From contig NZ_OY776414.1 of the NCBI RefSeq assembly GCF_963675585.1, positions 2,831,001 through 2,895,000 of the forward strand: DNA of 64,000 bases, in the 5' to 3' direction. Each line of letters starts with the position of its first letter. The stretch's first letter is position 1. The notes beneath the pieces were generated by a model. It searched no databases, had not been told where the DNA came from, and saw only the letters and a program-made list of their open reading frames with translations. This stretch comes from an uncultured Draconibacterium sp. (GTDB taxonomy: Bacteria; Bacteroidota; Bacteroidia; Bacteroidales; Prolixibacteraceae). This document shows, piece after piece, positions 860 to 26,993 of this stretch. The translations under genes were made by a program, and so were the position numbers.

Positions 860-880
860 TTATTCGTATCGAAGTGCTTC
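860..880 (-). pseudogene. ghost permease tail (EALRYE-stop) after P9
   Basis: Read on the minus strand these 21 bases encode E-A-L-R-Y-E followed by TAA, the exact ending of the permeases, yet they lie 64 bp beyond the true P9 stop at 945. No long open frame leads into it. It looks like the original end of a permease left behind when an upstream copy of the tail took over. Confidence 0.6.
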
Positions 881-920
881 TATCCCGATACACTTCCGAC
901 CAAAGGCACGGAACAAGTTC

Positions 921-944
921 CGCTATCGAGGATCTTCGCTCTCC
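921..944 (-). repeat. post-stop repeat element, copy 3 (after P9)
   Basis: These bases are nearly identical to 15465-15489 and 10616-10640. All three sit directly against a permease stop codon, so the homogenised 3' tract runs past the coding end here. A one-base deletion next to the stop gives P9 TGA where P3 and P5 have TAG. Confidence 0.6.
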
Positions 945-3317
945 TCATTCATATCGGAGAGCTTCGACAGGATTTCGCGTAGCTGCCCTCCAGCTTTGCC
1001 AACTCACCGTCAATAACGCGATTCCCAATGCCAACACACCGGCAAGTGCAAAAATCCACCAACTCAATGTTGTCTTGTACGCAAAATTTTCGAGCCATTT
1101 TTTCATCGCATAGTATGCAACAGGCGTAGCAAGTACAAATGCAATTGCTACCCACTTCACAAAGTCTTTATTCAGCATGGTTAATATTTCGGATATTTTT
1201 GCACCGTTTACTTTTCGGATGCCGATTTCTTTTGTGCGCTGCTCCATCACAAAAAAGGTTAAGCCAATCAATCCAAGGCACGAAAGAATTAGTGAAACTA
1301 TTGTTGTATACATCAGAAACTTCTGAAACCGGGCTTCTTTGATATACATCGCTTCATATTTTTGATCGAGAAATTGGTATTCCAGCGGAAAATCGGGAGA
1401 AAACCGATCCCAAAGTAGTTTTACCTCCTTCATGGTTGTGTTGAAAGAAGCAAGATTTTGGGTATTGATTTTCATATAGATTACATCGTCGCAATCGCCG
1501 GAGCACCGAAAACCCGCCGCCCTCACAGGCACATGAAACGATTCGAAATTATAATCATCAACAACCCCGATAATGTTGCCATGACATGATTCCTGATAGG
1601 CAATCCGGGTACCTGCTAACTGGTCAATACTAAAATCAGCTTTAGCCGTTTTATTGATTATAAAATCTTTATTGGTTTTTGAATTCTCATTGAATCCATT
1701 TCCTTCATTCAATCGCACTCCAAAAAAATCGAAGAAATTGGCGGCAACCGAAAGCTTCGAAAACTGCACATCGTATTTATCGCCATGATTAACGATATTC
1801 ATTCCCCAATTCTGGTCGTTGGCAATTAAAACACTTTCGGAAAAAGTAATTTCGCTGATCCCTGGAATTTGTAATATTTCATTTCGGAATGCATTTATCT
1901 GTGTATAAATTGCATTGTTGGTGTTAGCATAAATAATGTTTTCCTTGGCAAAGCCGGCATCTCTGTTCTGCATATAAGTGTTTTGGCGGTTAATTACCAG
2001 AATTGAAGTAATCAGCGCAATGGAAACCACAAACTGAAAAACCAGCAAACTGTTACGCGCCCAGTTATTTCCTTTTGAAGAAATGTTTTTACGAATCAGA
2101 AGTGTCACTGGTTTTTTCCCAAAGATTACCCCCGGAATAATACCTGTTAAAAATACCATCGCAGCAGCAATACAGAAAAGAAGAAGTAAAAAGTTTCCCG
2201 AAAATACTTCAGAAAAAGTAAACCAGGAACCTGTAATTCTATTGAAAGCCGGCAACAGTATAAGAATTAAACTAAATGATGCAGCTATTGTAATCAGTAA
2301 CATGAGTACCGACTCGGTAGTTACCATTTCAATTATTCTCCGCCTACTGCTACCCATCGTTTTGTAAATACCAACATTCTTGTATCTTTTTTCGCGTTGG
2401 GCGGTAATCATATTCACATAATTCACAAACGATAAAAGCAAAATAAGCAGGCCCACAATTCCAATAACTGAAACAGTAAATCGGTTTCCAGTTTTTAAAA
2501 TGCCTATTTCATGGAAGTCGAAATAAGCATCCTGAAAAGGAAACAGCCCGTATTTAATGCTTTCCTTATAATTTTCGGGTAATACGGCCAGATCTATATT
2601 CGACAATTTATCTTTTATAATTTGTTCTGAAACACTTTCGTTTATGCGGCCAAAAGCCTTGTAGTTTCTCGATCCCCAGCTTTTCATGTTATCAACATAC
2701 CAGTCGATTAAATAATTGGTTTGAAACGACAACACTGCGTCGAATTCCCACGAGCTGGATTGCGGAAGGTCTTCGATAACCGCGGTAACTTCTAATTCGA
2801 TACCCGATAAATAGGATGCATTGTAAGTAACTGTATTTCCAATTGGGTTTTCCTTCCCGAATATTTTTTCGGCCAACGATTGTGTTAGTACAATTTTATT
2901 GGAAGCATTTAGTCCGTTCTTTGGATCACCCAACACCGGATTAAACTGAAAAACCCTAAAAAAACAAGAGTCGGCAGTAAGCATTTTTTCAACTTTAAAA
3001 CTCTTCTGGTTTTTAGCCAGAAATACCTGCGGCGACCAATCATTTGTACAGTAAGTGATATTCTGAATTTCGGGAACTTCCGTTTTAACATGGTTGACCA
3101 TATTTTGCGAGAAATAGGGTTCATTGTTGTCGGTAAGAACATAGATGTTATTAAGATCGGGAATGAATTTATCCGTATTCTTTTCTTTTAAAACAAAAAG
3201 AAAAACAAGCATACTAACCGTAATCCCAACTGTTAAGCCAACCAAATTAAAAATCGTTACAGTTTTGTTCTTAAACAAGGAACGAAATGTGATTTTAATG
3301 TTTTTCAAAAATTCCAT
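945..3317 (-). CDS. FtsX/MacB-type ABC permease P9
   Basis: 790 residues, starting MEFLKNIKITFRSL. It has a membrane segment at about 20-42, a periplasmic MacB_PCD-like domain to about 270, a first FtsX core with the cytoplasmic coupling motif KNVGIYKTMGSS, a second periplasmic domain, and a second core with KEIGIRKVNGA from residue 696. The last 95 residues belong to the shared tail seen in P2 and P4-P7. The gap to P8 upstream is 78 bp and contains another ghost tail. No ATP-binding domain is present, so it must use a separate ATPase, presumably the one at 22697-23395. Confidence 0.9.
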   Translation of the reverse strand: MEFLKNIKITFRSLFKNKTVTIFNLVGLTVGITVSMLVFLFVLKEKNTDKFIPDLNNIYVLTDNNEPYFSQNMVNHVKTEVPEIQNITYCTNDWSPQVFLAKNQKSFKVEKMLTADSCFFRVFQFNPVLGDPKNGLNASNKIVLTQSLAEKIFGKENPIGNTVTYNASYLSGIELEVTAVIEDLPQSSSWEFDAVLSFQTNYLIDWYVDNMKSWGSRNYKAFGRINESVSEQIIKDKLSNIDLAVLPENYKESIKYGLFPFQDAYFDFHEIGILKTGNRFTVSVIGIVGLLILLLSFVNYVNMITAQREKRYKNVGIYKTMGSSRRRIIEMVTTESVLMLLITIAASFSLILILLPAFNRITGSWFTFSEVFSGNFLLLLFCIAAAMVFLTGIIPGVIFGKKPVTLLIRKNISSKGNNWARNSLLVFQFVVSIALITSILVINRQNTYMQNRDAGFAKENIIYANTNNAIYTQINAFRNEILQIPGISEITFSESVLIANDQNWGMNIVNHGDKYDVQFSKLSVAANFFDFFGVRLNEGNGFNENSKTNKDFIINKTAKADFSIDQLAGTRIAYQESCHGNIIGVVDDYNFESFHVPVRAAGFRCSGDCDDVIYMKINTQNLASFNTTMKEVKLLWDRFSPDFPLEYQFLDQKYEAMYIKEARFQKFLMYTTIVSLILSCLGLIGLTFFVMEQRTKEIGIRKVNGAKISEILTMLNKDFVKWVAIAFVLATPVAYYAMKKWLENFAYKTTLSWWIFALAGVLALGIALLTVSWQSWRAATRNPVEALRYE

Positions 3318-3331
3318 TTTATCTACTATTA

Positions 3332-3352
3332 TTATTCATATCTCCAGGCTTC
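3332..3352 (-). pseudogene. ghost permease tail (EAWRYE-stop) after P8
   Basis: The minus strand reads E-A-W-R-Y-E-TAA 43 bp beyond the P8 stop and 15 bp before the P9 start codon. It keeps the family ending with one substitution (L to W) and has no open frame of useful length in front of it. Confidence 0.5.
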
Positions 3353-3395
3353 CATACAGACAAAACACTGTTTGTCAGCATCTCCACATTTCCCA

Positions 3396-5726
3396 CTATT
3401 CATACCTGAGTGCTTCCACCGGATTTCGTGTAGCTGCCCGCCAACTCTGCCAACTCACGGTTAGCAGCGCAATGGCCAATGCCAGCACTCCTGCCAAAGC
3501 AAATATCCACCAGCTTAAAGTAGTTTTATAGGCAAAGTTTTCGAGCCACCGGGTAGTGAATATCACTCCAACAGGAATGGCAATAAATAACGAAAGCAAT
3601 ACCCACCGCAAAAATTCGCGGTTAATCAGGCTTACTATTTCCTGCGATCCGGCCCCGTTCACTTTTCGTATACCAATTTCTTTAATCCGGTTCGAAGTAT
3701 TTAATATGGCCTGCCCAAATATACCCAGACAGGAAATCACTATGGCCAGAATGGCAAATGTGGAAACCATTTTGGCAAGCTGCTCTTCTTTTTTATACAT
3801 CGAATCGAACCATGTATCATAAAAAGCATAATTTATGGGCACATTCGGTTCAACTTCATTCCAGGTGTTTTTAATGAAATCCATGGCTTCGGCAACATTA
3901 GTACCCGACAAACGCACGGTTAAAAAGCTTTTCTGAAAATCCTGGTATGAAATAACAAGTGGTTCAATTTCATCGTACATGGCTCCGAAATGAAAGTCCT
4001 TAATTACTCCAACCACTTGCAGTCCGTTGTATTTTTCGCCTCTTGCAAAACGTTTATCCTGCCAGGTACCCCAACCAAATTTTTTCATGGCCGTTTCGTT
4101 TACCAGGCAGGCTTTTTCATTTTCGCTGCTAAAAAAATCTCTTCCTTCAAGGATTTCGAAACCAAATGTTTTTATTACATCCTCATCGGCTCCAATAACA
4201 GAAACGCCACGATTGTAATCTTTCGCATCGAATCCGGCACTTCTCCCCCAATTAATTTCACCCGGAATTCCCGACGAATATCCGGCACTAAGGACATAAG
4301 GACTTTGCAACAATTCCTTTTTCAATACATCAAAGTTGGTAGCGCGATAAGTGGTAAGTTTTAACAGATAACTTTCTTTAAATCCCAAATCGGCATGTTT
4401 AACAAACGAAAGCTGTTTAAAAATGGTAATTACGCAGATAATAAGAACAACCGAAACCGCAAATTGAAAGGTAGTTAAAACGTTTTTCAGCATAAAATTA
4501 TCACCAACTTTTAATAGCCTTTTCTGAAAAAGATCCGGTGGATTATACGAAGTGATGATAAGTGCAGGAAAAAAACCGTTAATCAATCCCAAAACCAGGA
4601 TAAAAAGCCCGGCATAAACAAAGTAAATAGGTTTTAACAGTTCGAAGAGATTAATGTGCAGATTGAAAGTGGAGCGAAAAAATGGTAAGCCGAAATACGT
4701 AATTATACAGGCGAAGATGATTGAAATAAACGTAACAACAACCGACTCCACAAGAAAAGAACGGATTAACATTGGTTGCGATGCGCCAATGGTTTTACGC
4801 AAACCTACCTCCTTTATACGTTTTTTGTGCTGGGCAATGCTCAGATTTATGTAGTTGATTGATGCAAGTAAAAGCGTTATTAAAGCAATCGCCGACAACA
4901 ATTTTACCAGCCTTAAATTTCCTTGCTTTAAATCGTTATTAACCGTATTGTTATGCAAATAAATATCCTTGAAAGGCTGAAGTTTCACCTCCTTCAGAAA
5001 CTTATCTTCCTTAGCCAGTTGCGCATTTACTTTTTCAGTAACAACGTCAATATCCGTTTTATTATCAAGGGTTAGAAAGATATTTCTTTTGTACTCGCAT
5101 TTACCGTTTTCGCAATGACTCTCAGAATGTGTATTTACTTCATAGCTTTCATTTCTAATGAAATCGGCTTTTATACTCGATCGTTCCGGAAAATCCTGAA
5201 ATACGGCGGAAACGGTATATTCGTCCTTATTATAAAGAACAACTTTTTCGCCAATGGGATTTTGGATTCCAAATAATTTCTGCGATATACTTTCAGAAAT
5301 GGCCAGCGAATTCTTTTTGTCGTCAAAGGGTTCTTTTGGGTTTCCAAACAGCAGTGGAAATGAAAAAACCTCAAAAAAGTTATTATCAACCGAAGCGTTG
5401 TATTGAACGTCGATTATTTGTTGATTAAACCGAATTGGAGAATTACCTTCACGAAGTAAAACATGGCAATACTTTCCAACCTCAGGAATTTCCTTTAAAA
5501 TTTCATCTTTGATGGTGTAATCAACCTGTGCCTGGTTATTATCCGTATTCACCACCCGATAAATTTTATCGTAGTTTTCATGAAACTTATCGTAGCTCGA
5601 CTCGTGCAAAACATAAACTGCAATAATTGCACAAATACTGAGGCTAAAAGCAAAACCAACAATATTTATCACAAATGTTGTTTTGTCTTTTACAAGGCTT
5701 CGGAATATTAATTTTATATTGGTCAT
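3396..5726 (-). CDS. FtsX/MacB-type ABC permease P8
   Basis: 776 residues, starting MTNIKLIFRSLVKDK. Membrane segment at about 18-40; periplasmic domain with AISESISQKLFG; first coupling motif KEVGLRKTIGASQ; second coupling motif KEIGIRKVNGAGS. The tail is a mosaic. Residues after the second coupling motif (QEIVSLINREFLRWVLLS) are unlike the other copies, then from WLENFAYKTTLSWW onward (48 residues) it is near-identical to the shared tail. The switch point inside one gene is the clearest sign of partial gene conversion. The gap to P7 upstream is only 22 bp. Confidence 0.9.
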   Translation of the reverse strand: MTNIKLIFRSLVKDKTTFVINIVGFAFSLSICAIIAVYVLHESSYDKFHENYDKIYRVVNTDNNQAQVDYTIKDEILKEIPEVGKYCHVLLREGNSPIRFNQQIIDVQYNASVDNNFFEVFSFPLLFGNPKEPFDDKKNSLAISESISQKLFGIQNPIGEKVVLYNKDEYTVSAVFQDFPERSSIKADFIRNESYEVNTHSESHCENGKCEYKRNIFLTLDNKTDIDVVTEKVNAQLAKEDKFLKEVKLQPFKDIYLHNNTVNNDLKQGNLRLVKLLSAIALITLLLASINYINLSIAQHKKRIKEVGLRKTIGASQPMLIRSFLVESVVVTFISIIFACIITYFGLPFFRSTFNLHINLFELLKPIYFVYAGLFILVLGLINGFFPALIITSYNPPDLFQKRLLKVGDNFMLKNVLTTFQFAVSVVLIICVITIFKQLSFVKHADLGFKESYLLKLTTYRATNFDVLKKELLQSPYVLSAGYSSGIPGEINWGRSAGFDAKDYNRGVSVIGADEDVIKTFGFEILEGRDFFSSENEKACLVNETAMKKFGWGTWQDKRFARGEKYNGLQVVGVIKDFHFGAMYDEIEPLVISYQDFQKSFLTVRLSGTNVAEAMDFIKNTWNEVEPNVPINYAFYDTWFDSMYKKEEQLAKMVSTFAILAIVISCLGIFGQAILNTSNRIKEIGIRKVNGAGSQEIVSLINREFLRWVLLSLFIAIPVGVIFTTRWLENFAYKTTLSWWIFALAGVLALAIALLTVSWQSWRAATRNPVEALRYE

Positions 5727-5748
5727 GTTGTACTATTTATAAAGTTTC

Positions 5749-8124
5749 TTATTCATACCGAAGTGCTTCCACCGGATTCCGCGTAGCCGCCCGCCAGCTC
5801 TGCCAGCTCACCGTCAACAATGCAATTCCCAGAGCCAGTATTCCGGCTAAGGCAAATATCCACCAACTTAAATTGGTTTTGTAGGCAAAGTTTTCGAGCC
5901 ATTTATCCATTGCGTAATATGAAATTGGAGTGGCAATTACAAAAGCGATCGCCACCCATTTTATAAAGTCTTTATTTAGCAAGGCAAGTATTTCTGAAAC
6001 CTTGGCGCCGTTAACTTTTCGGATGCCAATTTCTTTGATTCGCATTTCGGATATAAAAATGACCGTACTCAATAATCCCAGGCAACCAATAAACACTGAT
6101 AGAATCGTCGCCAGTAGAAATATCTTACTAAACTTTTGGTCTTCTTTGTACAGCTCATCCAAAGTTTGATCCAGAAAATGGTATTCAAAAGGCCAGTCAC
6201 CACTAAAAGTATCCCAAACCGTTTCAATTTTAGTCATTGCTGATTGTAACTGTATTTTATCCGACACATTTAAATTTAGGTAAGCAATGCTTAAATTCTC
6301 CGGTTCGGAACAAATAAACCCTATCGGGCTTATGGCGTGGTGTAGCGACTGAAAATTGAAGTCTTTCACTACTCCGATTATTTTGCCTGATGCGTCGTCG
6401 TATGACGTTATCCTGGCTTCTGTAATGTTTTTAATTCCAAACTCATTTACTGCAAACTGGTTAAAAATGTGTTCGTGTTCGCGAATGGATGACGATCTAA
6501 AACCTTCACCTTCCACAATATCGAGTCCAAAGAAGTCAAAGAAATTTTCCTCAACCATCATGGCTTCATAACTGATTCGTTTATTTTCTCCGGCATTGTT
6601 TAACGACATGCCCCATCCCATATCCGATTTGCCCAAGGGATGCGAGGCCAATGTAATTGCCGACACTTCAGAAATGGAAGCCAATTCCTGTTTTATTGCC
6701 TTAGTTTGTTTGTTCATATCATTTCGCAGAGGCAGGTACAAAATATTGTCCTTTTTAAACCCCATTGTTTGGTTATGCATGTACATATTTTGTTTGTATA
6801 CAACCATTGAACCAATCACCAAAACAATAGAAAGCGTAAACTGAACCACCAACAAGGCATTACGCAGGTTCTCCTTTTTTCCGGCCAGTGTGCTGTTCTT
6901 TAATGCCTCATATGGTTTTACCCGCTGAAAATACAGGCTAATAAAAATAGTAGATAGAAAAAGTCCCAGAGCAATTACAATTGTTCCGACAATTAATGTA
7001 TTTATATCGAGTAACCCGGAAATACTGAACTCGGTACCAAATAAATTATTTAACCAGGGCAATGACAAACCAACTAAAACAATTGCCACGCCGAATGTAA
7101 TAATCAGTACTGGAAGCACTTCCGAAATCATACGAACAAATGAATCCCACCCATTGGCACCCAGCGTTTTGTGTATACCAATATTTTTGGTTTGTTTAAT
7201 TTTTTGAGCCGTGTTCAGATTAATAAAATTGATAATGGCCAGTAAAAAAACGATAAACATTATGGTTCCCAGCGTTCTAACCTGATTTAAACTTCCGTGC
7301 GACACCACGTTATCCTTTCCTGATTCAGAAAAATACAACGAAGAATAGGGTTTTAGAAAAATCTCTCCTTTGTCGGTTTTTGCCCAATCGGGAGCTGCTG
7401 CCTGAAAGGCTGAATTCAATTTTGCCTCAAGTCCGGCTATCGGGTTATTGGGTTGAAGTGAAATAAAAACTTCGTATCTCGCATTCCCCCAATGATCTGA
7501 ATCATACCAGGATACATAATAATTTAAAGCTTCAACCGGAATGATAGCATCGAACCTCATCATGGCTTCCTGTGGTGTATCTTTAATAACAGCAGCTACA
7601 GTTAAATCCATCACCCCAAAATCAGCTGTCATAAAACGTATTCCTTTACCTACCACATCGGTTTTACCAAAAACCTTTTCAGCTTCAGTTTCTGTAAGTA
7701 CAATGTTATCCTTTACGGCCAAAACATCACTCAAATCTCCAACAATTGTTTCGTGATTGAAAACATCAAAAAAATGGTCATCTGCAACCATTATTTTTCC
7801 GGTTTGGTATTGTTGCTGCCCCACTTCATAAAAACTTGTTTTAGACCAATTTGGATGCAGTTTGGTCATACTTTTAATTTCGGGGAATTTATTGTCGAAT
7901 TCCTTTAAACTTCGCGACGACCAGTAGGTACCTTCTGCCGATTTTAAACGATATATATTCTCGAAATTAGTGATTGTTTTCCCTCTTCTCATCTCGGTGA
8001 GAATGAATGTGCTAAGAAAAAGAACTATCGCAAAAGCAACACTTAGTCCCAATACATTGAGCAATAACTGACGATTACCTTTAAACAGTTGTCTTACGAT
8101 TAATTTTATTGAATGTTTTAACAT
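5749..8124 (-). CDS. FtsX/MacB-type ABC permease P7
   Basis: 791 residues, starting MLKHSIKLIVRQLF. Membrane segment at about 20-42; first periplasmic domain with NIVLTETEAEKVFG; first coupling motif KNIGIHKTLGANG; second periplasmic domain; second coupling motif KEIGIRKVNGAKV; full shared tail of 95 residues ending EALRYE-TAA. Bases 5892-5973 match 81 of 82 with 10784-10865 in P5, including silent positions, whereas the flanking tail DNA differs at many silent sites. Confidence 0.9.
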   Translation of the reverse strand: MLKHSIKLIVRQLFKGNRQLLLNVLGLSVAFAIVLFLSTFILTEMRRGKTITNFENIYRLKSAEGTYWSSRSLKEFDNKFPEIKSMTKLHPNWSKTSFYEVGQQQYQTGKIMVADDHFFDVFNHETIVGDLSDVLAVKDNIVLTETEAEKVFGKTDVVGKGIRFMTADFGVMDLTVAAVIKDTPQEAMMRFDAIIPVEALNYYVSWYDSDHWGNARYEVFISLQPNNPIAGLEAKLNSAFQAAAPDWAKTDKGEIFLKPYSSLYFSESGKDNVVSHGSLNQVRTLGTIMFIVFLLAIINFINLNTAQKIKQTKNIGIHKTLGANGWDSFVRMISEVLPVLIITFGVAIVLVGLSLPWLNNLFGTEFSISGLLDINTLIVGTIVIALGLFLSTIFISLYFQRVKPYEALKNSTLAGKKENLRNALLVVQFTLSIVLVIGSMVVYKQNMYMHNQTMGFKKDNILYLPLRNDMNKQTKAIKQELASISEVSAITLASHPLGKSDMGWGMSLNNAGENKRISYEAMMVEENFFDFFGLDIVEGEGFRSSSIREHEHIFNQFAVNEFGIKNITEARITSYDDASGKIIGVVKDFNFQSLHHAISPIGFICSEPENLSIAYLNLNVSDKIQLQSAMTKIETVWDTFSGDWPFEYHFLDQTLDELYKEDQKFSKIFLLATILSVFIGCLGLLSTVIFISEMRIKEIGIRKVNGAKVSEILALLNKDFIKWVAIAFVIATPISYYAMDKWLENFAYKTNLSWWIFALAGILALGIALLTVSWQSWRAATRNPVEALRYE

Positions 8125-8201
8125 CGTTTTAATTTTTATTGGTTAGTCACCAGTCTTAAATTGTCATTTATTTAAAACTTTCGATGAACGTCAATCCATA
8201 A

Positions 8202-10580: not shown

Positions 10581-10615
10581 TTTATTGGCTGTATTTAATT
10601 TAATTCTTCTCGCTT

Positions 10616-10640
10616 CGCTATCGTGGATTTCCGCTCTCCT
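10616..10640 (-). repeat. post-stop repeat element, copy 2 (after P5)
   Basis: A 25-bp stretch abutting the P5 stop codon and matching the equivalent stretch after P3 (15465-15489) and P9 (921-944) with only a few differences. No coding role is evident. Confidence 0.6.
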
Positions 10641-12983
10641 CTATTCGTACCGCAACGCCTCAACAGGATTTCTTGTAGCGGCCCGCCAGCTTTGCCAGCT
10701 AACGGTTAACAGTGCAATTCCCAAAGCCAACACCCCGGCTAAGGCAAATATCCACCAACTTAAAGTTGTTTTATAGGCAAAACTTTCGAGCCATTTATCC
10801 ATAGCGTAATATGAAATTGGAGTGGCAATTACAAAAGCGATCGCCACCCATTTTATAAAGTCTTTGTTCAGCATCATTAAAACTTCAGAAACTTTGGCTC
10901 CGTTAACTTTGCGGATGCCGATTTCTTTAATCCTTCCGTTAATGGTAAAAAGCACCAGCCCTACCAGGCCGATACACGAAATGAGAATATTCACAATAGA
11001 AAACAGGGCCGATAATTTGGAGAACTGCACTTCCTTTTTGTAATAGGTGGCAACCCTGTCGTTGGCAAAGGAATAACGGAAAGGGCTACCGGGTTTTACG
11101 TTTTTAATTATGTTTTCAATAAATTGAATTGAACTTTGCAAGTCGCCTGGGTTTAACCTGATGTTTGCAATCCACAGTGCTTCCGCGGGATCGCACAACA
11201 AGGCAACGGGCTGAATATGCGTTTGAACCGGTTCGAAATTAAAATCCTCGACAACGCCAATTATGGGATGATTATTCAGTTTCTCCTGAAGAGGATTTTC
11301 CATTTCCAAAGTTTTAGCCAGTGTTTGATTGATGATATAAGCTTTTGATATTTCATCGGTTTTCAACTCGCTGGTAAAATCCCGACCTTCCACAATTTTA
11401 TAGTGCATTGTTTTTACATAATCGACATCGGAAGGAATTTGACGGTACAAAAGTTTTTTACCGTTTATGTCAACAAAATTGCCCCGACGGACATCGCCAA
11501 AAATTCCTGCTGAAAAAGATACATTCTGAATGCGGGAATCTGCCATCAGTTTTTCTTTCAATACATCGGCTTCAGAAGTTGTTAAATTGTACGATATCAA
11601 ATCAACATAAACCAGCAAATCTTTGTCGAACCCTAAATTTTTATGGTTGATGAAGTTTACCTGCTTTTTAATGGTTATGGCCGACACGATAAAAAGTATG
11701 GCGATAAAAAACTGGACAATTATGAGCGGTCTATTTAAGAGACCTGAAGAGCGGTTTCCTGAATGTTTCATTTTAATTATTGCAGTGGAAGGAGCTTTTT
11801 TGAAATGGTGTGCCGGTACCATTGCTGAAATCAGTGCGGTCAATAACAGAATACCAAAAGCGATACTTAAATTGGTTCCCGTCAACAAAGACGAAAAATG
11901 ATATTCTTCAGCTAAAATATTTTGAAATGGCTGAATTATCAGAATCACAATTGCTGCAGCTATCCCGATTGAAACCATAAAATAGAGCAGGGTTTCCACA
12001 ACCGATTGGATTATAATTTGTCCGGGTTTGGCACCAAGTATTTTCCGGATGCCAAAGCCAAACAGGTTATTTAACGTTACTGCCGAATTCAAATTAATGT
12101 AGTTAATTATGCTGATGGTTAGCAAGCCGAGAGCGATAGACAATAAAAGAATTACGATTGATTTTTCTCCTTTATGAATCCACCTGTCGCGGTTGTTGTA
12201 CCCAAAATAAATGTCGTTCATCGGTTGCAGTTTCATGTCCTGTTGAAACGATTTTTCTTTACAGAATCCGGCAATTTTGTTCTCGATTGACGCAACATCA
12301 ACATTGGGTTTGAACATGATGTAGGTATGAAAAGAACCATTGTCGCGAATGAAAAAATCATCGGAAGGCCTGCCCGTGTACCCATTCCAAAGATAAGCCA
12401 GCAGCTGGAAAGGCAGGATGGCATCGACAGTAAAAGTTGAATTGGCAGGAAGATCTTCAATAATTCCGGTAACCGTTAAATCACAAAGATCATTGTATCG
12501 TAATACCTTACCAAGTGGATTTTTATCACCAAATATTTTCTTTGAAATGCTTTTTGTTAATACAATCGAAAGGGGACTTATCAGAGCTTCTTTTTCTGTT
12601 CCGGCAACCAGTTTAAAATCGAACATTTTAAAAACAGTGGAATCAAAACACATGTCGTACGGAATATCGACAACAGAATTTTCATATTTATAAAAACCAT
12701 GTCCATTGTGCCTCACCCGCGTTACCTCTTCAATTTCGGGGAAAGCACTTTTTAATTCACCGGCCAGCAGCGGGTTTGTAAAAGCAGTACCGTCGCCGGC
12801 ATCAACAACCCGGTAAATCCGGTCTTTATTCTGGTGAAAATCATCGACATGAAATTCATTGTACACATACAAAAGTAAAAGCGACGACAAGGCAAAAGCT
12901 GTTGACAAACCAACAACATTAATCATTGTATAGCTCCTGTATTTTAGTGCTTTCCGATAAATTCTTTTTAAGTTATTCAGCAT
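10641..12983 (-). CDS. FtsX/MacB-type ABC permease P5
   Basis: 780 residues, starting MLNNLKRIYRKALKYRS. Membrane segment at about 18-38; first periplasmic domain with SIVLTKSISKKIFG; first coupling segment degenerate (FGFGIRKILGAKPG, missing the usual KE); second coupling motif KEIGIRKVNGAKV; full shared tail with one private change (LESFAYK). It shares a nearly identical 82-bp block with P7. The gap to P4 upstream is 73 bp and contains a ghost tail. Confidence 0.9.
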   Translation of the reverse strand: MLNNLKRIYRKALKYRSYTMINVVGLSTAFALSSLLLLYVYNEFHVDDFHQNKDRIYRVVDAGDGTAFTNPLLAGELKSAFPEIEEVTRVRHNGHGFYKYENSVVDIPYDMCFDSTVFKMFDFKLVAGTEKEALISPLSIVLTKSISKKIFGDKNPLGKVLRYNDLCDLTVTGIIEDLPANSTFTVDAILPFQLLAYLWNGYTGRPSDDFFIRDNGSFHTYIMFKPNVDVASIENKIAGFCKEKSFQQDMKLQPMNDIYFGYNNRDRWIHKGEKSIVILLLSIALGLLTISIINYINLNSAVTLNNLFGFGIRKILGAKPGQIIIQSVVETLLYFMVSIGIAAAIVILIIQPFQNILAEEYHFSSLLTGTNLSIAFGILLLTALISAMVPAHHFKKAPSTAIIKMKHSGNRSSGLLNRPLIIVQFFIAILFIVSAITIKKQVNFINHKNLGFDKDLLVYVDLISYNLTTSEADVLKEKLMADSRIQNVSFSAGIFGDVRRGNFVDINGKKLLYRQIPSDVDYVKTMHYKIVEGRDFTSELKTDEISKAYIINQTLAKTLEMENPLQEKLNNHPIIGVVEDFNFEPVQTHIQPVALLCDPAEALWIANIRLNPGDLQSSIQFIENIIKNVKPGSPFRYSFANDRVATYYKKEVQFSKLSALFSIVNILISCIGLVGLVLFTINGRIKEIGIRKVNGAKVSEVLMMLNKDFIKWVAIAFVIATPISYYAMDKWLESFAYKTTLSWWIFALAGVLALGIALLTVSWQSWRAATRNPVEALRYE

Positions 12984-13008
12984 GATTTTTCTTCTTCAAT
13001 TTGTTTTG

Positions 13009-13029
13009 TTATTCGTATCTCATCGCCAC
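13009..13029 (-). pseudogene. ghost permease tail (VAMRYE-stop) after P4
   Basis: The minus strand reads V-A-M-R-Y-E-TAA 27 bp beyond the P4 stop. The RYE-stop ending is the family signature. An 8-bp inverted repeat (ATCCCGAT/ATCGGGAT, 13031-13052) lies between the ghost and the working stop. Confidence 0.45.
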
Positions 13030-13056
13030 AATCCCGATGCTTCAATCGGGATTTCG

Positions 13057-15399
13057 TCACTCATATCTGAGTGCCTCAACAGGATTCCGTGTAGCAGCCC
13101 GCCAACTCTGCCAACTCACTGTTAACAGTGCGATTCCCAATGCCAATACTCCTGATAATGCAAATATCCACCAACTTAAATTGGTTTTATAGGCGAAATT
13201 TTCCAGCCATTTATTCATGGCGTAGTATGCAATTGGCGTGGCAACAACAAAAGCAATTCCCACCCCAATCACAAAATCTTTATTTAACAGCGTTAATATT
13301 TCTGATATTTTAGCACCATTTACTTTGCGGATGCCGATTTCTTTGGTGCGCAGTTCCAACACAAAAAGAGATAATCCAACTAATCCTAAAATAGCAATGA
13401 ATATAGCCAATACCATAAAAGAGGTGAATATTGTTTTGGTGTACTTTTCCGATTGGTACAACCGTTCAAATCGCTCATCAATAAACTGATAGGAAAATGG
13501 AGAACCTGACAAGTCAAAATCTTGCCACGTATTTTTTATAAACGTTATTGTATTTGCTATGTCAGTTTGATTTGTTCGTATTGAAATGCGATTATAACTA
13601 AAAGGGTCTTTATATAAGATAATTGGGAATACAGCATTGTGTAACGATTCGTAATTGAAGTTTTCCAACACGCCAACTATTCTGCCTTTTTCATTTCCAT
13701 ATTCAACAAACTGCCCGATTGCCGCTTCGGGCGATTCCCAGCCAATTTTCTCCACTGCCGAACGATTCACCAAATATTCCTTCACTTCCTTAGTTTGACT
13801 GCTAATATTATTTCCGGCAATCAGTTTCATTTCGTAGGTTGGAACAAAATGTTCGTCACCCCGAATATTGGCTACCCTAAAACCAAGAGGTTCCATTTTT
13901 CCATTATTGGAAACTTTCATTGCGTTACTGTCATCAAGACGTTGCGATGGTATTCTTTTAGAACCGGTTACATCAATAATGTTCGGGTTTTTAGTTAACT
14001 GATCGCGAAACACATCAAGCTTTTCAATATGATTAGGCGATGCGCTCACTGAAATCACATTCTCCTGATTAAGCCCAAGATTTTTCGTCTGCAAATAGTC
14101 TAATTGTCTATTTACTGTCAGGAATGACACAATCAGAGCAATTGAAACAAAAAACTGGAAAATAACCATCCCGTTACGAAAAGACATTTTACCGTTTGAG
14201 GAAAGATACTTTTTACCTGAAAGCAATATTTTAGCCGGATATACCACCGATACCAGTCCAATAAAAATTGAGAGTGTGAAAAATACAGCTATCAGAGTTA
14301 GATTTTGGCGCACAGAAAATGCCAGGTTACTGTTAAAAAGATTCGCAAGATAAGGAATAGCCAAACCAACAAGAATGAGGGCAACACTTAAAGAAATAAT
14401 ACAAAATAAGACTGATTCAAGCACTAATAAGGATAGGATCTGTTTACGTGTTGCTCCAATAATTTTTTTAATCTGAATTTCTTTAATCCGTTTGCTGTAA
14501 ATAGCAGTATTCAGGTTGATGTAGTTGATGCTTCCCAAAAGCAGGATCAAGATTGCAATGGATAACAACACATAAATACTTGAACGGCTTCCATACCAGT
14601 TGAAATGGATATCCGATAATTTTTCCATCCTTATTTTTGTCCAACTTGTTCCATTTTCAAATTGTTTGTTGATGAATGCATCGAGGCGGGAATCCAGTTG
14701 TTGAGGCGGATCCAGCACCAATGCATATGTTTCGTAATTATTACTACCCCAGTCGTTTAACTCACTTTCACCTACTGCATTTGCATAGGTAGAAAAAGAA
14801 ATAAAGATTTCAGGTCGGAAATGGTTGTTTTGCTCCCAGTCGTTGAACACACCGGTAACTTTTAAATTATAACTGTTGCCATTTTCATCGAAAAATTCTA
14901 TTGTTTTACCAACCGCATATTCGTTATTAAAATACTTATTTGCAATCGATGCAGAGACCACAGCTGTTAGTGGTTCGTTTAGTAAATTGTTTTCAATAGA
15001 AAGCCCTTCGAAAGAGAAAATATTCAGAATATCGGGTTCGGCAAAACAAACGTCCGGTTCTGTTACCTTTTGATCGTTCAAACGAAAAAGCATTCCGGTA
15101 TGAGATACCCGTGCTATATTTTCAATCTCCGAGAATTCGTCTTTCAATAATGGCGCAATGGGAGGCGCAACATAGGGCAAATGAAGATTCTCGGTTCCAT
15201 TATTATCGTAAAAATACCGATGAACGCGGTAAATTTGGTTCGCATTTGTGTGAAACCGATCGTAACTCAATTCATTTTTTATCCAAAGACCAATAAAAAC
15301 TACGCAAGCAAAACCAATTACCAGCCCGGTAAAATTGATGGAGTTATACAACGGATTTCGTTTAATAAAGCGGATAATATTTGTGCGATTTTTTTTCAT
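13057..15399 (-). CDS. FtsX/MacB-type ABC permease P4
   Basis: 780 residues from the ATG at 15399 (MKKNRTNIIRFIKRNP). An upstream TTG at 15429 would add ten lysine-rich residues and is less likely. Membrane segment at about 20-40; periplasmic domain with TAVVSASIANKYF; first coupling motif KEIQIKKIIGATR; second coupling motif KEIGIRKVNGAKI; shared tail with small private changes (DFVIGVGIAF, ALSGVLALG). It ends in TGA. Confidence 0.88.
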   Translation of the reverse strand: MKKNRTNIIRFIKRNPLYNSINFTGLVIGFACVVFIGLWIKNELSYDRFHTNANQIYRVHRYFYDNNGTENLHLPYVAPPIAPLLKDEFSEIENIARVSHTGMLFRLNDQKVTEPDVCFAEPDILNIFSFEGLSIENNLLNEPLTAVVSASIANKYFNNEYAVGKTIEFFDENGNSYNLKVTGVFNDWEQNNHFRPEIFISFSTYANAVGESELNDWGSNNYETYALVLDPPQQLDSRLDAFINKQFENGTSWTKIRMEKLSDIHFNWYGSRSSIYVLLSIAILILLLGSINYINLNTAIYSKRIKEIQIKKIIGATRKQILSLLVLESVLFCIISLSVALILVGLAIPYLANLFNSNLAFSVRQNLTLIAVFFTLSIFIGLVSVVYPAKILLSGKKYLSSNGKMSFRNGMVIFQFFVSIALIVSFLTVNRQLDYLQTKNLGLNQENVISVSASPNHIEKLDVFRDQLTKNPNIIDVTGSKRIPSQRLDDSNAMKVSNNGKMEPLGFRVANIRGDEHFVPTYEMKLIAGNNISSQTKEVKEYLVNRSAVEKIGWESPEAAIGQFVEYGNEKGRIVGVLENFNYESLHNAVFPIILYKDPFSYNRISIRTNQTDIANTITFIKNTWQDFDLSGSPFSYQFIDERFERLYQSEKYTKTIFTSFMVLAIFIAILGLVGLSLFVLELRTKEIGIRKVNGAKISEILTLLNKDFVIGVGIAFVVATPIAYYAMNKWLENFAYKTNLSWWIFALSGVLALGIALLTVSWQSWRAATRNPVEALRYE

Positions 15400-15464
15400 T
15401 TTAATTTTTTTTATCTGTACTTTTTTCAAAACGTAATAATTAATTGCCTGTTAAAAACAAGTAT

Positions 15465-15489
15465 CGCTATCGATGATCTTCGCTCTCCT
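15465..15489 (-). repeat. post-stop repeat element, copy 1 (after P3)
   Basis: A 25-bp stretch directly after the P3 stop, repeated after P5 and P9. P3 has the shortest shared coding tract (13 residues), yet it still carries this element. This suggests the exchanged segment is centred on the stop codon. Confidence 0.6.
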
Positions 15490-17838
15490 CTATTCGTATC
15501 GAAGTGCTTCCACCGGGTTCCGCGTTGCAGCTTTGTAAGCCAGGAAACCACTTGAAATAATAATAATCAGAATTGACCCGATTGCAACCAGAAGAACATC
15601 CCAAACAGTAGCCTGGTATTTATAAGCACCAGGTGTTAATCGTTGAAGTATTGGAAAAACCGGTACAACATTTAGAATAGCAATTAAAAGAAGTACGATT
15701 AACTTATTGGTAGTCAGCAAAAACATTTGGATTGTTTTCGCACCGTGCACTTTTCGAACGCCTATTTCTTTTATTTTTTGCTGTGTCAAGAAAACGACCA
15801 ATCCAAATATTCCAACAAGAGCAATTATGATAGCCAGAATGGTAAAAAAACCGGATGTATTTCTCACATTGGTCCAGATTTCAAGAACTTTACGATTACT
15901 GTCTTCTTCAAATTCATAAATATTGAAAATCGAGTTAGGGAAAAATCCGGCAAGCGTGTTTTTAACCTCTCTTTTTGACTGGTTGATTTTTTCGGAATTC
16001 ACTAAAAAAGTAAAACATGTTGACTGATCAAGATTTCCGTCATGTAACAATAAAACATAGGGTTCTATAAAAGTATTTAAATTCCCCTGATTGAAATCTT
16101 TCAGAACACCAATTACCTCATATTTTTTACCGCCGTCTTGAATCCACTTTCCGATAGCATTTTTCCATCCAAATTTTCGAACAGCTGTTTCGTTAACCAG
16201 GCATTTATTTACATCAGTTGTGTATTCACGCGAAAAGTTACGGCCTTTAAGCAGGGTAAAATTGTAGGTGTTTATAAAATCGAAACACGCCTTGTTATAC
16301 TGAACAGGGGTTAGTTCATCGTTCGGGCCTGCTTCATAAAAAACAGTTGTATTCCAACTGTGATGTAAAGGTGTATTCCCCGACACACTTACATTTTTAA
16401 TATCCGGATTGCTCAATAATTCGTTTCTTAAAACATCGTATGAAACGTGACTGTTATTCGATGGTATCCGGGTGTGTAAAAGATATTCTTTATCAAACCC
16501 AACTTCCTTGTTTTCCAGAAAATTAACCTGCCGGTACATCCAAATACTTGATCCGAACAAAATGGTTGAAAGTATAAATTGAACATAAACCATAACCATC
16601 ATCCCGTAAGATTTTCTTTTTGTTCCGGGAAAATGGCCCTGCCCTTTTAGCATTTTTATTGGATTGTATCCGGCAGCAATATATGCGGGGTAAATTCCGG
16701 CTAAAAAACCTGCAATAATAATAATTCCCAGTGTTAAAATTATCAAACCCGCGTCATTCAAAACTGAGAGTGTAATTTCTCGTTTAACCACTGTACTGAA
16801 AAACGGCAGGCAAATAAAAGTTAGTGCCAGAGCTATAATAAAAGCCAATACTGATATAATGATTGATTCGGATAAAAATTGCCAGCGAATTTTTTGTTTA
16901 CTGCTTCCATTTGTTTTTCTAATACCAATTTCTTTGGAACGTTTAGTCGACATTGAGGTGGAAAGATTCATAAAATTAACTTTAGCTAAAAGCAAAATGA
17001 GAACACCCATTAAAGAGTAGAAAAACACAATGCTTTTTGAATTTCCTGAACCGTCGGGTTCGAGATGAATCTTTTTTAGTGGATGCAGATACAATTCGGA
17101 TTTATTTAACGGAAGATGATCTTTGTAGATATTTCGAATTTGATAATCTACTGCTGAAACTAATGCACCGGGTCTTAGTAACACATAGGTCATGAAGGAT
17201 GTATTTCCCCATTCATTCGCATTTTTATCACTTTCCTTTATTATTGAACGAATATAAGCAGCTGTAATATGCGAATTGGCTGGAATGTCTTCCATTATTC
17301 CTGTAACCAGCAGTTCGTTTTTTTCTTTATCGTAAATGATCTCGCCAACAGCGTTTTTACCAGGGAAAAACTTTTGCGCCATTGATTGCGATAAAACAAT
17401 AGAATTGGGCTGATCAAGTACATCCACTTTATTTCCTTGTATTAATTTGAAGGAAAAAATGTCAAAAACATCGCTGGAGGCTGATGCACCAAATTGTTCA
17501 ATAAACGTTAATTCAGGTGAAGATGAAAAAATCCTGTTCTTTTCAGTATCTATTGAGATAACTTCTTCAACTTCCGGAAGATTATTTTTCATATAACCGG
17601 AAACAGGAAAGGATGTTAAGGTATTAACGTCTAGTTTGTCTCCTTTTTTATATTCCTGAACCCTGTAAATCCTGTCGAAATTCGTATTAAAAGCATCCCA
17701 GTTTTTTTCGTATTCTACATATTTCACAATTAGTATGAATGCCGTAATTCCTAAGGATAACCCAACAATCTGAATAAAAGAGAGAAGCCTGTTTCGTCTA
17801 ATATTTCGAAGCGCAATATTTATAAAGTGTCTAAGCAT
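15490..17838 (-). CDS. FtsX/MacB-type ABC permease P3 (divergent tail)
   Basis: 782 residues, starting MLRHFINIALRNIRRN. Membrane segment at about 18-40; periplasmic domain with SIVLSQSMAQKFF; first coupling motif KEIGIRKTNGSSK; second coupling motif KEIGVRKVHGAKT. Its last two membrane segments (LIVLLLIAILNVVPVF and the one after) are unrelated in detail to the shared tail. Only the final 13 residues, AATRNPVEALRYE, match, and these match exactly. That abrupt switch makes it the shortest example of tail replacement in the array. Confidence 0.9.
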   Translation of the reverse strand: MLRHFINIALRNIRRNRLLSFIQIVGLSLGITAFILIVKYVEYEKNWDAFNTNFDRIYRVQEYKKGDKLDVNTLTSFPVSGYMKNNLPEVEEVISIDTEKNRIFSSSPELTFIEQFGASASSDVFDIFSFKLIQGNKVDVLDQPNSIVLSQSMAQKFFPGKNAVGEIIYDKEKNELLVTGIMEDIPANSHITAAYIRSIIKESDKNANEWGNTSFMTYVLLRPGALVSAVDYQIRNIYKDHLPLNKSELYLHPLKKIHLEPDGSGNSKSIVFFYSLMGVLILLLAKVNFMNLSTSMSTKRSKEIGIRKTNGSSKQKIRWQFLSESIIISVLAFIIALALTFICLPFFSTVVKREITLSVLNDAGLIILTLGIIIIAGFLAGIYPAYIAAGYNPIKMLKGQGHFPGTKRKSYGMMVMVYVQFILSTILFGSSIWMYRQVNFLENKEVGFDKEYLLHTRIPSNNSHVSYDVLRNELLSNPDIKNVSVSGNTPLHHSWNTTVFYEAGPNDELTPVQYNKACFDFINTYNFTLLKGRNFSREYTTDVNKCLVNETAVRKFGWKNAIGKWIQDGGKKYEVIGVLKDFNQGNLNTFIEPYVLLLHDGNLDQSTCFTFLVNSEKINQSKREVKNTLAGFFPNSIFNIYEFEEDSNRKVLEIWTNVRNTSGFFTILAIIIALVGIFGLVVFLTQQKIKEIGVRKVHGAKTIQMFLLTTNKLIVLLLIAILNVVPVFPILQRLTPGAYKYQATVWDVLLVAIGSILIIIISSGFLAYKAATRNPVEALRYE

Positions 17839-17873
17839 AATTTTTATTTTTTCTTTCGCTTTACAATAAACGA

Positions 17874-20222: not shown

Positions 20223-20237
20223 TGTACTGTTTTTTAG

Positions 20238-20258
20238 TTATTCATAACGCAAGGCTTC
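20238..20258 (-). pseudogene. ghost permease tail (EALRYE-stop) after P1
   Basis: The minus strand reads E-A-L-R-Y-E-TAA 33 bp beyond the P1 stop and 15 bp before the P2 start. All six residues match the working tails, although the codons differ from the P1 stop region. No long frame feeds into it. Confidence 0.6.
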
Positions 20259-20291
20259 CTCCCTATCGCTTTACGATCAACGATCTCAGAA

Positions 20292-22640
20292 TTACTCGTA
20301 TCTGAGTGCTTCAACCGGATTACGGGTTGCCGCCCGCCAGCTTTGCCAGCTCACTGCCATAAATGCTATTAACAATGCGAAAGCCGCACTTATCAGAAAA
20401 TATATAGGAGAAATAGATACCCGGTTTACAAAATGTTGCAACCATTGATGCATGGTAAAATAACTGCCAATAAAAGCTATAACAATGGCAATAAGAACCA
20501 GGATAAACGTTTCTTTTAACAGCTCTCGTACAACCTGTGTTTCGGTACTGCCAATTACCTTCCGTATTCCTATCTCTTTTCTTCGTCGGTTTACATTTAG
20601 CACCGAAAGCGCCATTAAACCAATAAAACTGATGATGATAGCCAGTCCGGCACCGGTGGTAACCAGTTTTATCATACGCTCTTCGTTGGTGTATTTATTG
20701 GCATAAACATCGGTCAACTGAAACTTACTTATTATAAGTTCCGGCGAATAACTTTTAATCACCTCATCAATTTGGGCCAGCTGCGCAGAAGTAGTTCCTG
20801 CTTTTGTACGCACATAAATGTTGTTTACATTGTTGCGGTAATTTGTAATAACTAGCGGTGCAATTGGAGCTCCCGGATGGTCGATGTAGTAAAAATCCTT
20901 TGCAATTGCAATTACGGTTAAAGGTTCATCAAACATATCTACCAGGCTGCCAACTTTCACCTCAGACCCCAGCATTTTTGCCGCTGCCTGGTTCAGAATT
21001 ACTGCCCTTTTATCTGATTCAGACTTATTAAAATACCGGCCGTCAACCAATTCAAGTTGCATGGTTTTTGCAAATCCGGGATGTACACGGTATTCATCGA
21101 TACCTTTAAAATTACCGGAATCGCCGTATTTTTTTATTCCCTGACCGCTTGAGCCTTGTCCCATCGCATGATCGGAAGCAGCCACATCTTCAACAAATGC
21201 CAGTTGCGACAATTTCTCAGCGATTGACGATGCGCTTCTTCGTACCTCGTTATTCAAATTGGTGATGCCAATTACATTCTCGGGATTAAAACCAAGTGGT
21301 ACCTCCTTCAAATAATTCACCTGGACAAAAACAATTACAAGTGCACTAATCAGAAAAACCGAAATAGAAAACTGTGAAATAACTGCAATACGCGACAATG
21401 TGCTTTTACGTTTTACTTTCGAAGACTTTCCTTTGAGCGCGTTTACCAGGTTTAGTTTCGACAAATAATAGCTTGGATAAGCTCCCGAAACCAGTATTAA
21501 AACAGTCAGAACTGCCAGAACCAACAAAATTCCGGATAAAGAAAACATGTCTGAGAGTTCGATCTGGCTTTTCATTAATCGCGCAAATGCGGGCTGAACA
21601 AGTGCCGTAATTCCCAAAGCCAACATAAACGACAAAATGCTTATTACTGATGTTTCGGTGAAGAACAAACGCGAGAGTGTACTTTGCGTTGCTCCCAGCG
21701 ATTTTCGTGAAGCAATTTCGGCAATTCGTTTTTCGCCATGCAAAACATACAAATTAATGTAATTTACCATGGCAATAAGCAGCACCAAAAAGGCAATGCC
21801 TGCAATAATAAAAACATGCGTTAAATTTGCTTTTGGAGAAAGGTCGAAATCAACAACGGTATGAAGGTGCAGGTCTGACAGTAATTCTGTTCCTGTTTCC
21901 ACAGAAAGGTTAAATGGTTCTCCCCAGGGTTTCATTTCCTCGTTATTTGCTGCAGCTATTTTCTCGCTAACCACAGCTAAATTGGTATTCTCGTCAATTC
22001 GGAAATATGTATAAAGTTCCAGTCCTCCCCAGTTTTCGGGATGAACTGTTTGCATCGATACCAACAAGTCGAAATTAAAGTGTGTGTTATTGGGCAAGTC
22101 ATTAATTACACCTGTTACAGTAGCCGCCTCTTCCGATACGTTAAAAACCTTACCAACACAATCAACAGTATTGAATACTTTTAATGCCGTCGACCGGGTA
22201 ATCACCACATTGTTTTCAAGCTGCAAAGCATCGCTGCTGTTTCCCTGCAGCAGCTCGAGTCCAAACACATCAAAAAACTCCTTATCGGCATACAACAGAT
22301 GCATGTTGGGAAATTTTTGCTTCTCATATTCCGCAGTAGTATTCCAGCCGTTATAAATCTGAGTGGCCGATCTTATTTCCGGAACCCGCAATGGAATTTC
22401 GGTATAAGCCTGGCGCAAACAAATGGCATAATTGGTAATGTTTCCATTTTCGGTAACTGCATTGTAAAGTCGAAGAACATTGTTTTTTGTTTGAAAATGC
22501 TGATCGTAACTTAACTCGTGTTTAAGGTAAACCGCCAACAGCAATACTGCGCTTAATCCGACAGCTAATCCGGGAAGGTTTACAAAAACCAACAAGGGAT
22601 TTCGCCGAAACATTCTGAATATAAATCGTAAATCTTTCAT
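20292..22640 (-). CDS. FtsX/MacB-type ABC permease P1 (partly divergent tail)
   Basis: 782 residues, starting MKDLRFIFRMFRRNP, first permease after the ATPase (56-bp gap). Membrane segment at about 17-39; periplasmic domain with NVVITRSTALKVF; first coupling segment AEIASRKSLGATQ; second coupling motif KEIGIRKVIGSTE. The last membrane segments (IYFLISAAFALLIAFMA) are private. Only the final 20 residues, VSWQSWRAATRNPVEALRYE, are shared with the other copies. It may be the founding partner of the ATPase, judged only from its position. Confidence 0.9.
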   Translation of the reverse strand: MKDLRFIFRMFRRNPLLVFVNLPGLAVGLSAVLLLAVYLKHELSYDQHFQTKNNVLRLYNAVTENGNITNYAICLRQAYTEIPLRVPEIRSATQIYNGWNTTAEYEKQKFPNMHLLYADKEFFDVFGLELLQGNSSDALQLENNVVITRSTALKVFNTVDCVGKVFNVSEEAATVTGVINDLPNNTHFNFDLLVSMQTVHPENWGGLELYTYFRIDENTNLAVVSEKIAAANNEEMKPWGEPFNLSVETGTELLSDLHLHTVVDFDLSPKANLTHVFIIAGIAFLVLLIAMVNYINLYVLHGEKRIAEIASRKSLGATQSTLSRLFFTETSVISILSFMLALGITALVQPAFARLMKSQIELSDMFSLSGILLVLAVLTVLILVSGAYPSYYLSKLNLVNALKGKSSKVKRKSTLSRIAVISQFSISVFLISALVIVFVQVNYLKEVPLGFNPENVIGITNLNNEVRRSASSIAEKLSQLAFVEDVAASDHAMGQGSSGQGIKKYGDSGNFKGIDEYRVHPGFAKTMQLELVDGRYFNKSESDKRAVILNQAAAKMLGSEVKVGSLVDMFDEPLTVIAIAKDFYYIDHPGAPIAPLVITNYRNNVNNIYVRTKAGTTSAQLAQIDEVIKSYSPELIISKFQLTDVYANKYTNEERMIKLVTTGAGLAIIISFIGLMALSVLNVNRRRKEIGIRKVIGSTETQVVRELLKETFILVLIAIVIAFIGSYFTMHQWLQHFVNRVSISPIYFLISAAFALLIAFMAVSWQSWRAATRNPVEALRYE

Positions 22641-26679: not shown

Positions 26680-26705
26680 TTTCTGAATATTGTTTCGTTG
26701 ACTTA

Positions 26706-26722: not shown

Positions 26723-26796
26723 AAATACAAACTCCTAATAATATGACACTTAACACATCTCCCGAAATGTATACGTTAAATTTATTTACAGATAAT

Positions 26797-26977: not shown

Positions 26978-26993
26978 GATTAAATACCACAAC

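Follow-up and report, generated by a model that had tools for sequence, protein, structure and literature searches.

Permease arrays in the genus Draconibacterium very probably consist of permease bodies that are exchanged as cassettes by homologous recombination in their shared 3' coding tails, behind a conserved head encoding an outer membrane efflux protein (OEP), a membrane fusion protein (MFP) and an ABC ATPase. Recombination in the tails is clear. There is direct support for where the junctions lie, for the change of the downstream gene that accompanies them, for differences between arrays that amount to body swap, conversion and gene loss, and for the near-saturation of synonymous sites in the tails.

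The permease array and its shared tail

The window, a stretch of 64,000 nucleotides from the genome of an uncultured Draconibacterium sp. (G000), contains nine complete permease ORFs of 776-792 amino acids, which occupy positions 945-22640 on the minus strand (Table 1). They are numbered here by position, from P1 at 945 to P9 at 20292; the initial annotation had numbered them in the order of transcription, so that its P1, P3 and P8 correspond to P9, P7 and P2. The array runs on to the left of the window, where six further permeases lie at C4:2812266-2831638. Three of the nine permeases (P1, P7 and P9) were scanned against Pfam, and all three contain FtsX and MacB_PCD over the cut-offs, as in MacB/YbbP-type permeases, with two FtsX stretches in each. 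Furthermore, P4 matches solved MacB chains by sequence. A simple hydropathy analysis gave seven membrane segments in P1 and eight in each of the other eight. The stand-alone ATPase next to P9 is predicted to serve the array, and the HATPase_c protein encoded beyond the divergent response regulator is probably its partner histidine kinase. Upstream of the OEP gene, simple pattern searches for a sigma-54 promoter yielded a single weak candidate, at 26989, and Rfam gave no match at the gathering threshold within window positions 1-31000.

Table 1. Coordinates, in window positions, of the permease array, its neighbours and features at permease 3' ends
Feature	Position	Strand	Remarks
Permease U6, next in array, truncated at window edge	3..638	-	gene start
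Permease P1	945..3317	-	790 aa; canonical long tail 945-1238
Permease P2	3396..5726	-	776 aa; canonical over final ~48 residues only (about 3396-3542)
Permease P3	5749..8124	-	791 aa; canonical tail 5749-6042
Permease P4	8202..10580	-	792 aa; family f4
Permease P5	10641..12983	-	780 aa
Permease P6	13057..15429	-	790 aa; TTG start in the mechanical ORF list
Permease P7	15490..17838	-	782 aa; family f31; shared tract is the final 13 residues only (15490-15531)
Permease P8	17874..20222	-	782 aa; canonical tail
Permease P9	20292..22640	-	782 aa; family f2; shared tract is the final 20 residues (20292-20354)
Stand-alone ABC ATPase	22697..23395	-	232 aa; Pfam ABC_tran; position conserved
HlyD-type membrane fusion protein	23972..25228	-	
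Outer membrane efflux protein (TolC-type)	25330..26730	-	
Sigma-54-type response regulator, divergent	27690..29051	+	
HATPase_c protein	29048..30400	+	
62-nt run identical in P3 and P5	P3 5912..5973, P5 10804..10865	-	GENECONV-like permutation test
Two-hairpin element, P1 3' end	876..965	-	covariance model R1, E 4.8e-12
Two-hairpin element, P2 3' end	3348..3416	-	E 6.3e-8; degenerate second tail end
Element match, P5 3' end, weak	10597..10661	-	E 0.002
Element match, P6 3' end, weak by model	13025..13077	-	E 0.003; type I hairpin exact
Element match, P7 3' end	15446..15510	-	E 7.4e-6
Element-like stretch, P9 3' end, then second EALRYE-stop	20259..20312	-	no model R1 match

Arrays from 21 genomes, 20 of which were fetched from 36 other genomes of the genus, yielded 293 permeases, defined as ORFs of 730-870 amino acids with two sequence motifs, a definition that misses some real ones, such as a 798-aa permease in both G003 and G036. 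Grouped at 70% body identity, these genes give 145 families, of which 84 are singletons, and the gene order is scrambled. At the head of the array, the arrangement is more constant: in 17 of the 21 genomes, the fetched DNA has OEP, MFP and ATPase genes ahead of the first permease, with a fusion protein and an outer membrane channel accompanying the ATPase as in tripartite efflux systems, and family f2 (the P9 type) provides the first array gene in all 13 genomes where it was found. Relatives of P9 with 88-94% identity include those of Draconibacterium orientale, D. mangrovi, D. sediminis and Sunxiuqinia indica genomes. In G031, 37 permeases were counted in the main fetched stretch, and three contigs of G010 had 28, 9 and 6; the fetched DNA of these two genomes showed neither an OEP nor an MFP of the array type. 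A second ATPase gene, 52-54% identical to that of the head, occurs in or near the fetched array of 12 of the 21 genomes, that of the window included, so that a single ATPase may not serve all permeases. Its copy in the genome of the window lies at C4:2815630-2816298, and in many genomes the gene sits towards the end of the array. The same genome also carries a separate pair of an ATPase and a single permease (C4:2526351-2529525), in which the ATPase has 232 amino acids and ends that resemble those of the array ATPase, while the permease tail is 76% identical to that of P3.

The C-terminus AATRNPVEALRYE is common to all nine permeases, as the initial annotation had reported and the ORF translations confirm. 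The lengths that it gave for the shared tract also hold, at about 13 residues in P7, 20 in P9, 48 in P2 and 95 in the other six, attached to bodies of only 21-32% amino acid identity across all nine genes. The tail of about 95 residues starts two residues ahead of the KEIG coupling motif, which follows the sixth hydropathy segment, and covers the last two hydrophobic segments and the C-terminus. Among the six genes with long tails, amino acid identity over the last 100 columns is 80-94%, and DNA identity over the last 60 codons is 68-91% per 20-codon block (at least 75% in 44 of 45 blocks). Tail matches with E<=1e-10 were obtained in 83 of 148 sampled genomes of the order, counting the genome of the window itself, and the best match outside the genus, in another family of the order (G069), is 90% identical. 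A review on MacB places the major coupling helix between TM2 and TM3 and a minor one, which touches the ATPase, at the C-terminus, and treats YbbP as a fusion of two permease units (PMC5985334). By analogy, the second half of the permease would face the ATPase through its tail, which would comprise the major coupling helix, TM7-TM8 and, at the C-terminus, the minor coupling helix, and so meet a shared ATPase. The tails, that is, probably carry the ATPase-coupling helices.

Recombination junctions across the genus

Orthologous permeases with nearly identical bodies often have tails that are far less alike. In 23 orthologue pairs with canonical tails and bodies at least 96% identical, codon identity was 0.931 in the body and 0.695 in the tail, and the tail was lower by more than 0.1 (corrected) in 19 of the 23 and higher in none. 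An extreme case is the pair G012_2516001/G030_1530374, with codon identity of 0.98 in the body and 0.54 in the tail. For P4, the body is 93-95% identical to orthologues in G013, G030, G024 and G002, and their tails diverge at synonymous sites. The gap between body and tail persists in smaller form down to the 75-85% bin of body identity; below 75%, the tail is no longer more divergent and the gap is gone or reversed after saturation correction. In odd-tailed orthologues, the drop was smaller in the 85-93% bins but clear at 93% and above (11 and 3 pairs), and they thus do not provide a clean negative control. Because breaks were found in four of five odd-tailed pairs of high identity, one of them at -316, the canonical long tail is not required.

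The positions of the junctions were located in several ways. In 10 of 12 hand-chosen pairs, near-identity stops within the tail and the following gap and next gene are unrelated, while in the remaining two it continues throughout. Of 92 canonical orthologue pairs, the 43 whose flanks were at least 0.93 identical were scanned for change points over the last 600 nt (lnLR above 5), and 37 of them had one, representing 21 of 26 families; 36 of these points lie within the last 300 nt and one at -355. Breaks were present in all 27 pairs with a different next gene, in four of seven with the same next gene and in six of nine in which the next gene was not assessable, although orthologue pairs share genes and ancestry, so that these counts do not represent independent events. 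In a scan of entire genes (29 pairs), 60-nt windows of less than 0.88 identity made up 79, 69, 31, 21 and 10% over the last 300 nt and 0-10% further in, apart from 14% in one window near the 5' end. A mirror test examined 78 pairs in which the bodies differ and the next gene is the same. Identity over the last 25 codons was 0.824 in these pairs, against a null of 0.776 from matched random pairs (sd 0.006; largest of 300 nulls, 0.796), with a smaller rise further upstream (0.833 vs 0.815 for codons -50 to -25 and 0.726 vs 0.699 for -97 to -50).

Other parts of the genes were less affected. When thirds of bodies were compared, no clear chimera was found and no pair had one close and one clearly dissimilar third; three pairs were borderline, with 43.9-44.5% in the middle third and 67% in the last. 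The 5' boundary is less regular than the 3' one, as the upstream gap stayed with the downstream body in only 7 of 14 high-identity cases with different upstream genes; in three of the other seven, an inserted two-hairpin element (see below) accounts for the difference.

Single events can be read from the arrays of G003 and G036, long stretches of which share 97.7-98.9% identity. At one position that has the same neighbours on both sides in the two arrays, G003 carries a gene of family f98 and G036 one of f109; the last 189 nt of these genes are identical and the following 207-nt gap is 0.99 identical, as in a body swap. Over 173 nt (-210 to -38), the f46 tail of G003 matches the f45 tail of G036 without a difference, and from -202 to -44 its identity to G003's own f45 tail is 0.994, a pattern that points to conversion by the neighbouring gene. 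Furthermore, the end of the G003 f46 gene is identical over 50 nt to that of the f31 (P7-type) gene of G036, including 43 nt through the stop that comprise the codons of AATRNPVEALRYE-stop and one base, and the DNA downstream of it matches the sequence after G036 f31 at 98.9%. f31 was not found in the fetched G003 array, and a crossover inside the 13-residue tract pointed out by the initial annotation would explain these findings. G036 is taken to be a metagenome bin, and assembly error is therefore a small risk for this pair.

Could these observations arise without exchange of cassettes? Purifying selection alone, which would conserve the tail as the ATPase-facing part of the protein without any recombination, is an unlikely explanation, even though it fits the beginning of the tail at the coupling motif and its extent over the last two hydrophobic segments and the C-terminus. 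In the nine window genes, codon identity at identical residues was 0.474 in the tails, with 0.374 expected at saturation, and 0.425 in the bodies, with 0.413 expected; the small excess in the tails means that some of them share more recent ancestry than their bodies. The synonymous sites of the tails are nevertheless near saturation, and relatives of the tail reach well beyond the genus into other families of the order; hence purifying selection is the main force that keeps the tail protein as it is. This process cannot yield bodies of 0.98 identity joined to tails of 0.54, nor the 173 identical nucleotides of the f46 and f45 tails; selection is refuted as the sole cause, yet it is the best reason for the conservation of the tail at the protein level. 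The argument of the initial annotation that selection alone gives no sharp, gene-specific breakpoints is itself weaker than stated, since the odd tails of P9 and U6 type recur in orthologues of other genomes and those breakpoints are thus largely inherited. From the breakpoints it had inferred repeated gene conversion or tail replacement, and recurrent homogenisation of tails within each genome (concerted evolution) is quite improbable. A GENECONV-like permutation test of the kind it had proposed, conducted over 55 pairs of canonical tails in the array of the window, revealed one significant tract, in which P3 and P5 share 62 identical nucleotides from -225 to -164 relative to the gene end with 47 polymorphic sites (global P < 1/2000). 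This probable gene-conversion tract and the f46/f45 tail of G003 favour homogenisation, as does a thin upper end of within-genome tail similarity (99.9th percentile of 0.78, vs 0.68 between genomes), but none of the remaining pairs reached a global P of 0.05 (next 0.06), and tails on non-orthologous bodies have a mean codon identity of 0.482 within genomes (2363 pairs) and 0.477 between them (27793 pairs). Paralogous tails are not clearly closer within a genome, which largely refutes general homogenisation, while single conversions exist. Junctions that fall in tails and rarely in bodies and the P3/P5 and f46 conversions sustain part of the inference; as a general account it fails, because synonymous sites of the tails are not homogenised (0.47 vs 0.37 expected). 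Both observations that the initial annotation had set against its own inference were largely made, namely high synonymous divergence in the tails of the window and similar tails elsewhere (the 90% relative in G069 and the 76% match in the single permease of the same genome). The comparison of arrays that it had suggested, carried out here with 21 genomes, places the junctions in the tails and indicates that whole-gene exchange is a commoner process than tail-only copying, although the break in four of seven pairs that keep the same next gene shows that change of the tail alone is not rare.

Site-specific exchange of cassettes, either integron-like or by a recombinase acting on the tails, would account for the cassette-like gene order and for the insertion of a small element at one site at the tail end. 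It is very unlikely as the cause of the tail junctions, whose change points are spread over about 300 nt, and the integron integrase IntI (TIGR02249) was over its curated cut-off in none of 37 genomes, the weaker matches in all 37 being as expected of other tyrosine recombinases. Assembly error by mis-joining of reads at similar tails can be invoked with hardly any plausibility. Some of the genomes (G036 and G005) are taken to be metagenome bins, but the pattern also occurs in pairs with G006, G009 and G002, which are taken to be D. orientale, D. mangrovi and D. sediminis, and tails of different genes mostly diverge at 10-25% of sites, which makes them ill suited to mis-joining.

A two-hairpin element at permease 3' ends

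A small element at permease ends represents a finding separate from tail recombination. It consists of about 50-65 nt with two hairpins, is inserted ahead of the last seven codons and re-encodes EALRYE-stop. Among 139 inter-permease gaps no shorter than 30 nt, 33 contain a second tail end, either EALRYE-stop or a close variant, which is usually preceded by a palindromic stretch, compared with an average of 0.015 in shuffled gaps and none on the other strand. Comparison of filled and empty sites before f10, f17 and f3 genes revealed 48-64 nt inserted immediately ahead of the EALRYE-stop codons, so that the element supplies its own copy and the old gene end is left behind. The f17 case is the clearest, since all four genomes have f2 upstream; in the f10 case, the upstream genes differ. 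Up to three tandem copies were observed, after G006_1848672.

Nucleotides of the gene end pair with nucleotides after the stop. In helix 1, changes on both sides were found in four of seven pairs among 15 sequences, which were picked for a visible hairpin 1, a choice that favours covariation; none of 500 shuffles attained the covariation score of the whole structure, and 27 of the 500 reached the count of both-side changes. Genes of the same hairpin subtype are 0.951 identical over the last 21 nt and 0.799 just before, a sharp boundary, although the subtype was partly defined from those 21 nt. A test of stem length was mildly above its control, with at least six pairs in 54 of 293 genes vs 33.

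At E<=0.01, a covariance model has matches in 25 of the 37 genomes examined in the genus, and under stricter filters (E<=0.001) only in the window's own genome among 119 sampled genomes of the order. Of 87 matches in the genus, 66 are in fetched arrays; 59 begin 18-27 nt before the stop of an ORF ending in L[RQK]xE, five are further copies just after such a stop and two are neither. Dispersed copies throughout the genome are not the pattern, as 64 of the 66 array matches and all five that were inspected among the 21 elsewhere lie at or just after permease ends, although the model spans the coding end and draws on some of the same sites, which favours such matches, and the sequences used to build it are counted among them. 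The pattern of hairpin 2 alone, in its type II form (seven genomes), had all 11 of its matches inside array coordinates. The type I hairpin (ATCCCGAT..ATCGGGAT) proved to be a dispersed repeat, with only 5 of 29 matches in arrays.

Between the OEP gene and the response regulator gene lies an ORF for a Y1-type transposase of 151 amino acids (26994-27449, plus strand), near relatives of which occur at the heads of the G003 and G008 arrays. It was considered as the mover of the element and is at most a lead, as the palindromes seen by eye around this copy are different ones and Y1_Tnp is present in 35 of 37 genomes, some of which (G012 and G034, for example) lack the element. In the arrays of G005 and G006, a 671-nt gap with another Y1-type transposase gene directly follows a permease stop.

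Proposed cassette exchange and its relation to known systems

The favoured reading, exchange of cassettes through recombination in the tails, envisages an array of exchangeable permease genes behind a fixed efflux machine composed of outer membrane protein, fusion protein and ATPase, with the shared 3' coding tail as the main site at which homologous recombination, presumably of RecA type, would join cassettes. A crossover between two tails, which are mostly 75-90% identical in DNA, would keep one body and bring in the 3' part of the other tail, the gap behind it and the next gene. Whole permeases would thereby be inserted, deleted or replaced with the C-terminus intact, and sometimes a segment of the tail alone would be copied. 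Donor DNA from other strains would lead to replacement and insertion, and recombination within one array to deletion and conversion. With junctions at the coupling motif or beyond it, each product retains a complete body and a complete tail; any body would then be expected to work with the resident engine, since the tail that is kept would meet the shared ATPase, and the variable periplasmic parts would set the substrate range. Conservation of the tail and recombination in it may each be the cause of the other.

In its broader form, this proposal describes an integrase-free cassette system, in which the tail itself is the recombination site that trades a genus-wide pool of bodies into arrays of about 20, perhaps nearly 40, genes on one efflux engine, together with a two-hairpin element specialised in inserting before the last seven codons and re-encoding them, leaving the protein intact. 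We consider the chances of this combined claim to be evenly balanced. If true, an exporter could acquire new front ends and still match its ATPase, changing front parts could be fitted to one fixed pump engine, and the part that must fit the engine would double as the site of recombination. The proposal predicts that permease bodies are interchangeable on one engine. An element of this kind would be unusual as well, as an insertion that spares its host gene by carrying the missing codons.

No description of such permease arrays was found among the matches listed in a search of open-licence PubMed Central papers. The closest relatives in architecture are the MacAB-TolC and YbbAP-type systems (type VII ABC), which share FtsX and MacB_PCD, a separate ATPase, a HlyD-type fusion protein and an adjoining outer membrane efflux protein; here, in contrast, a single OEP-MFP-ATPase head stands before extended rows of divergent permeases. 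A study of 2025 reported that sigma-54 control is enriched for an antimicrobial-peptide ABC permease COG in Bacteroidia (PMC12316311), which fits the divergent sigma-54-type regulator beside the array. The two-hairpin element resembles REP elements, small palindromic units downstream of genes that are associated with RAYT transposases and, in the case of the GTAG REPs, often supply a stop codon with their ends (PMC3733652). Unlike REP elements, it occurs where genes of one family end and re-encodes seven of their codons.

Msp2 of Anaplasma uses one expression site, whereas many complete genes stand in one row here. The likeness lies in the shuffling of gene-family members by recombination, which for Msp2 involves functional pseudogenes (PMC2789410). 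The nearest parallel in process is offered by the Rhs genes, which are diversified through C-terminal displacement by homologous recombination; there, a constant coding part is decoupled from a variable one and recombination yields new combinations (PMC2935791). The re-sorting of constant and variable parts by recombination is, thus, a kind of process already known from Rhs, although in the permease arrays the constant part is 3' and the variable part 5', and the products are inner-membrane permeases.
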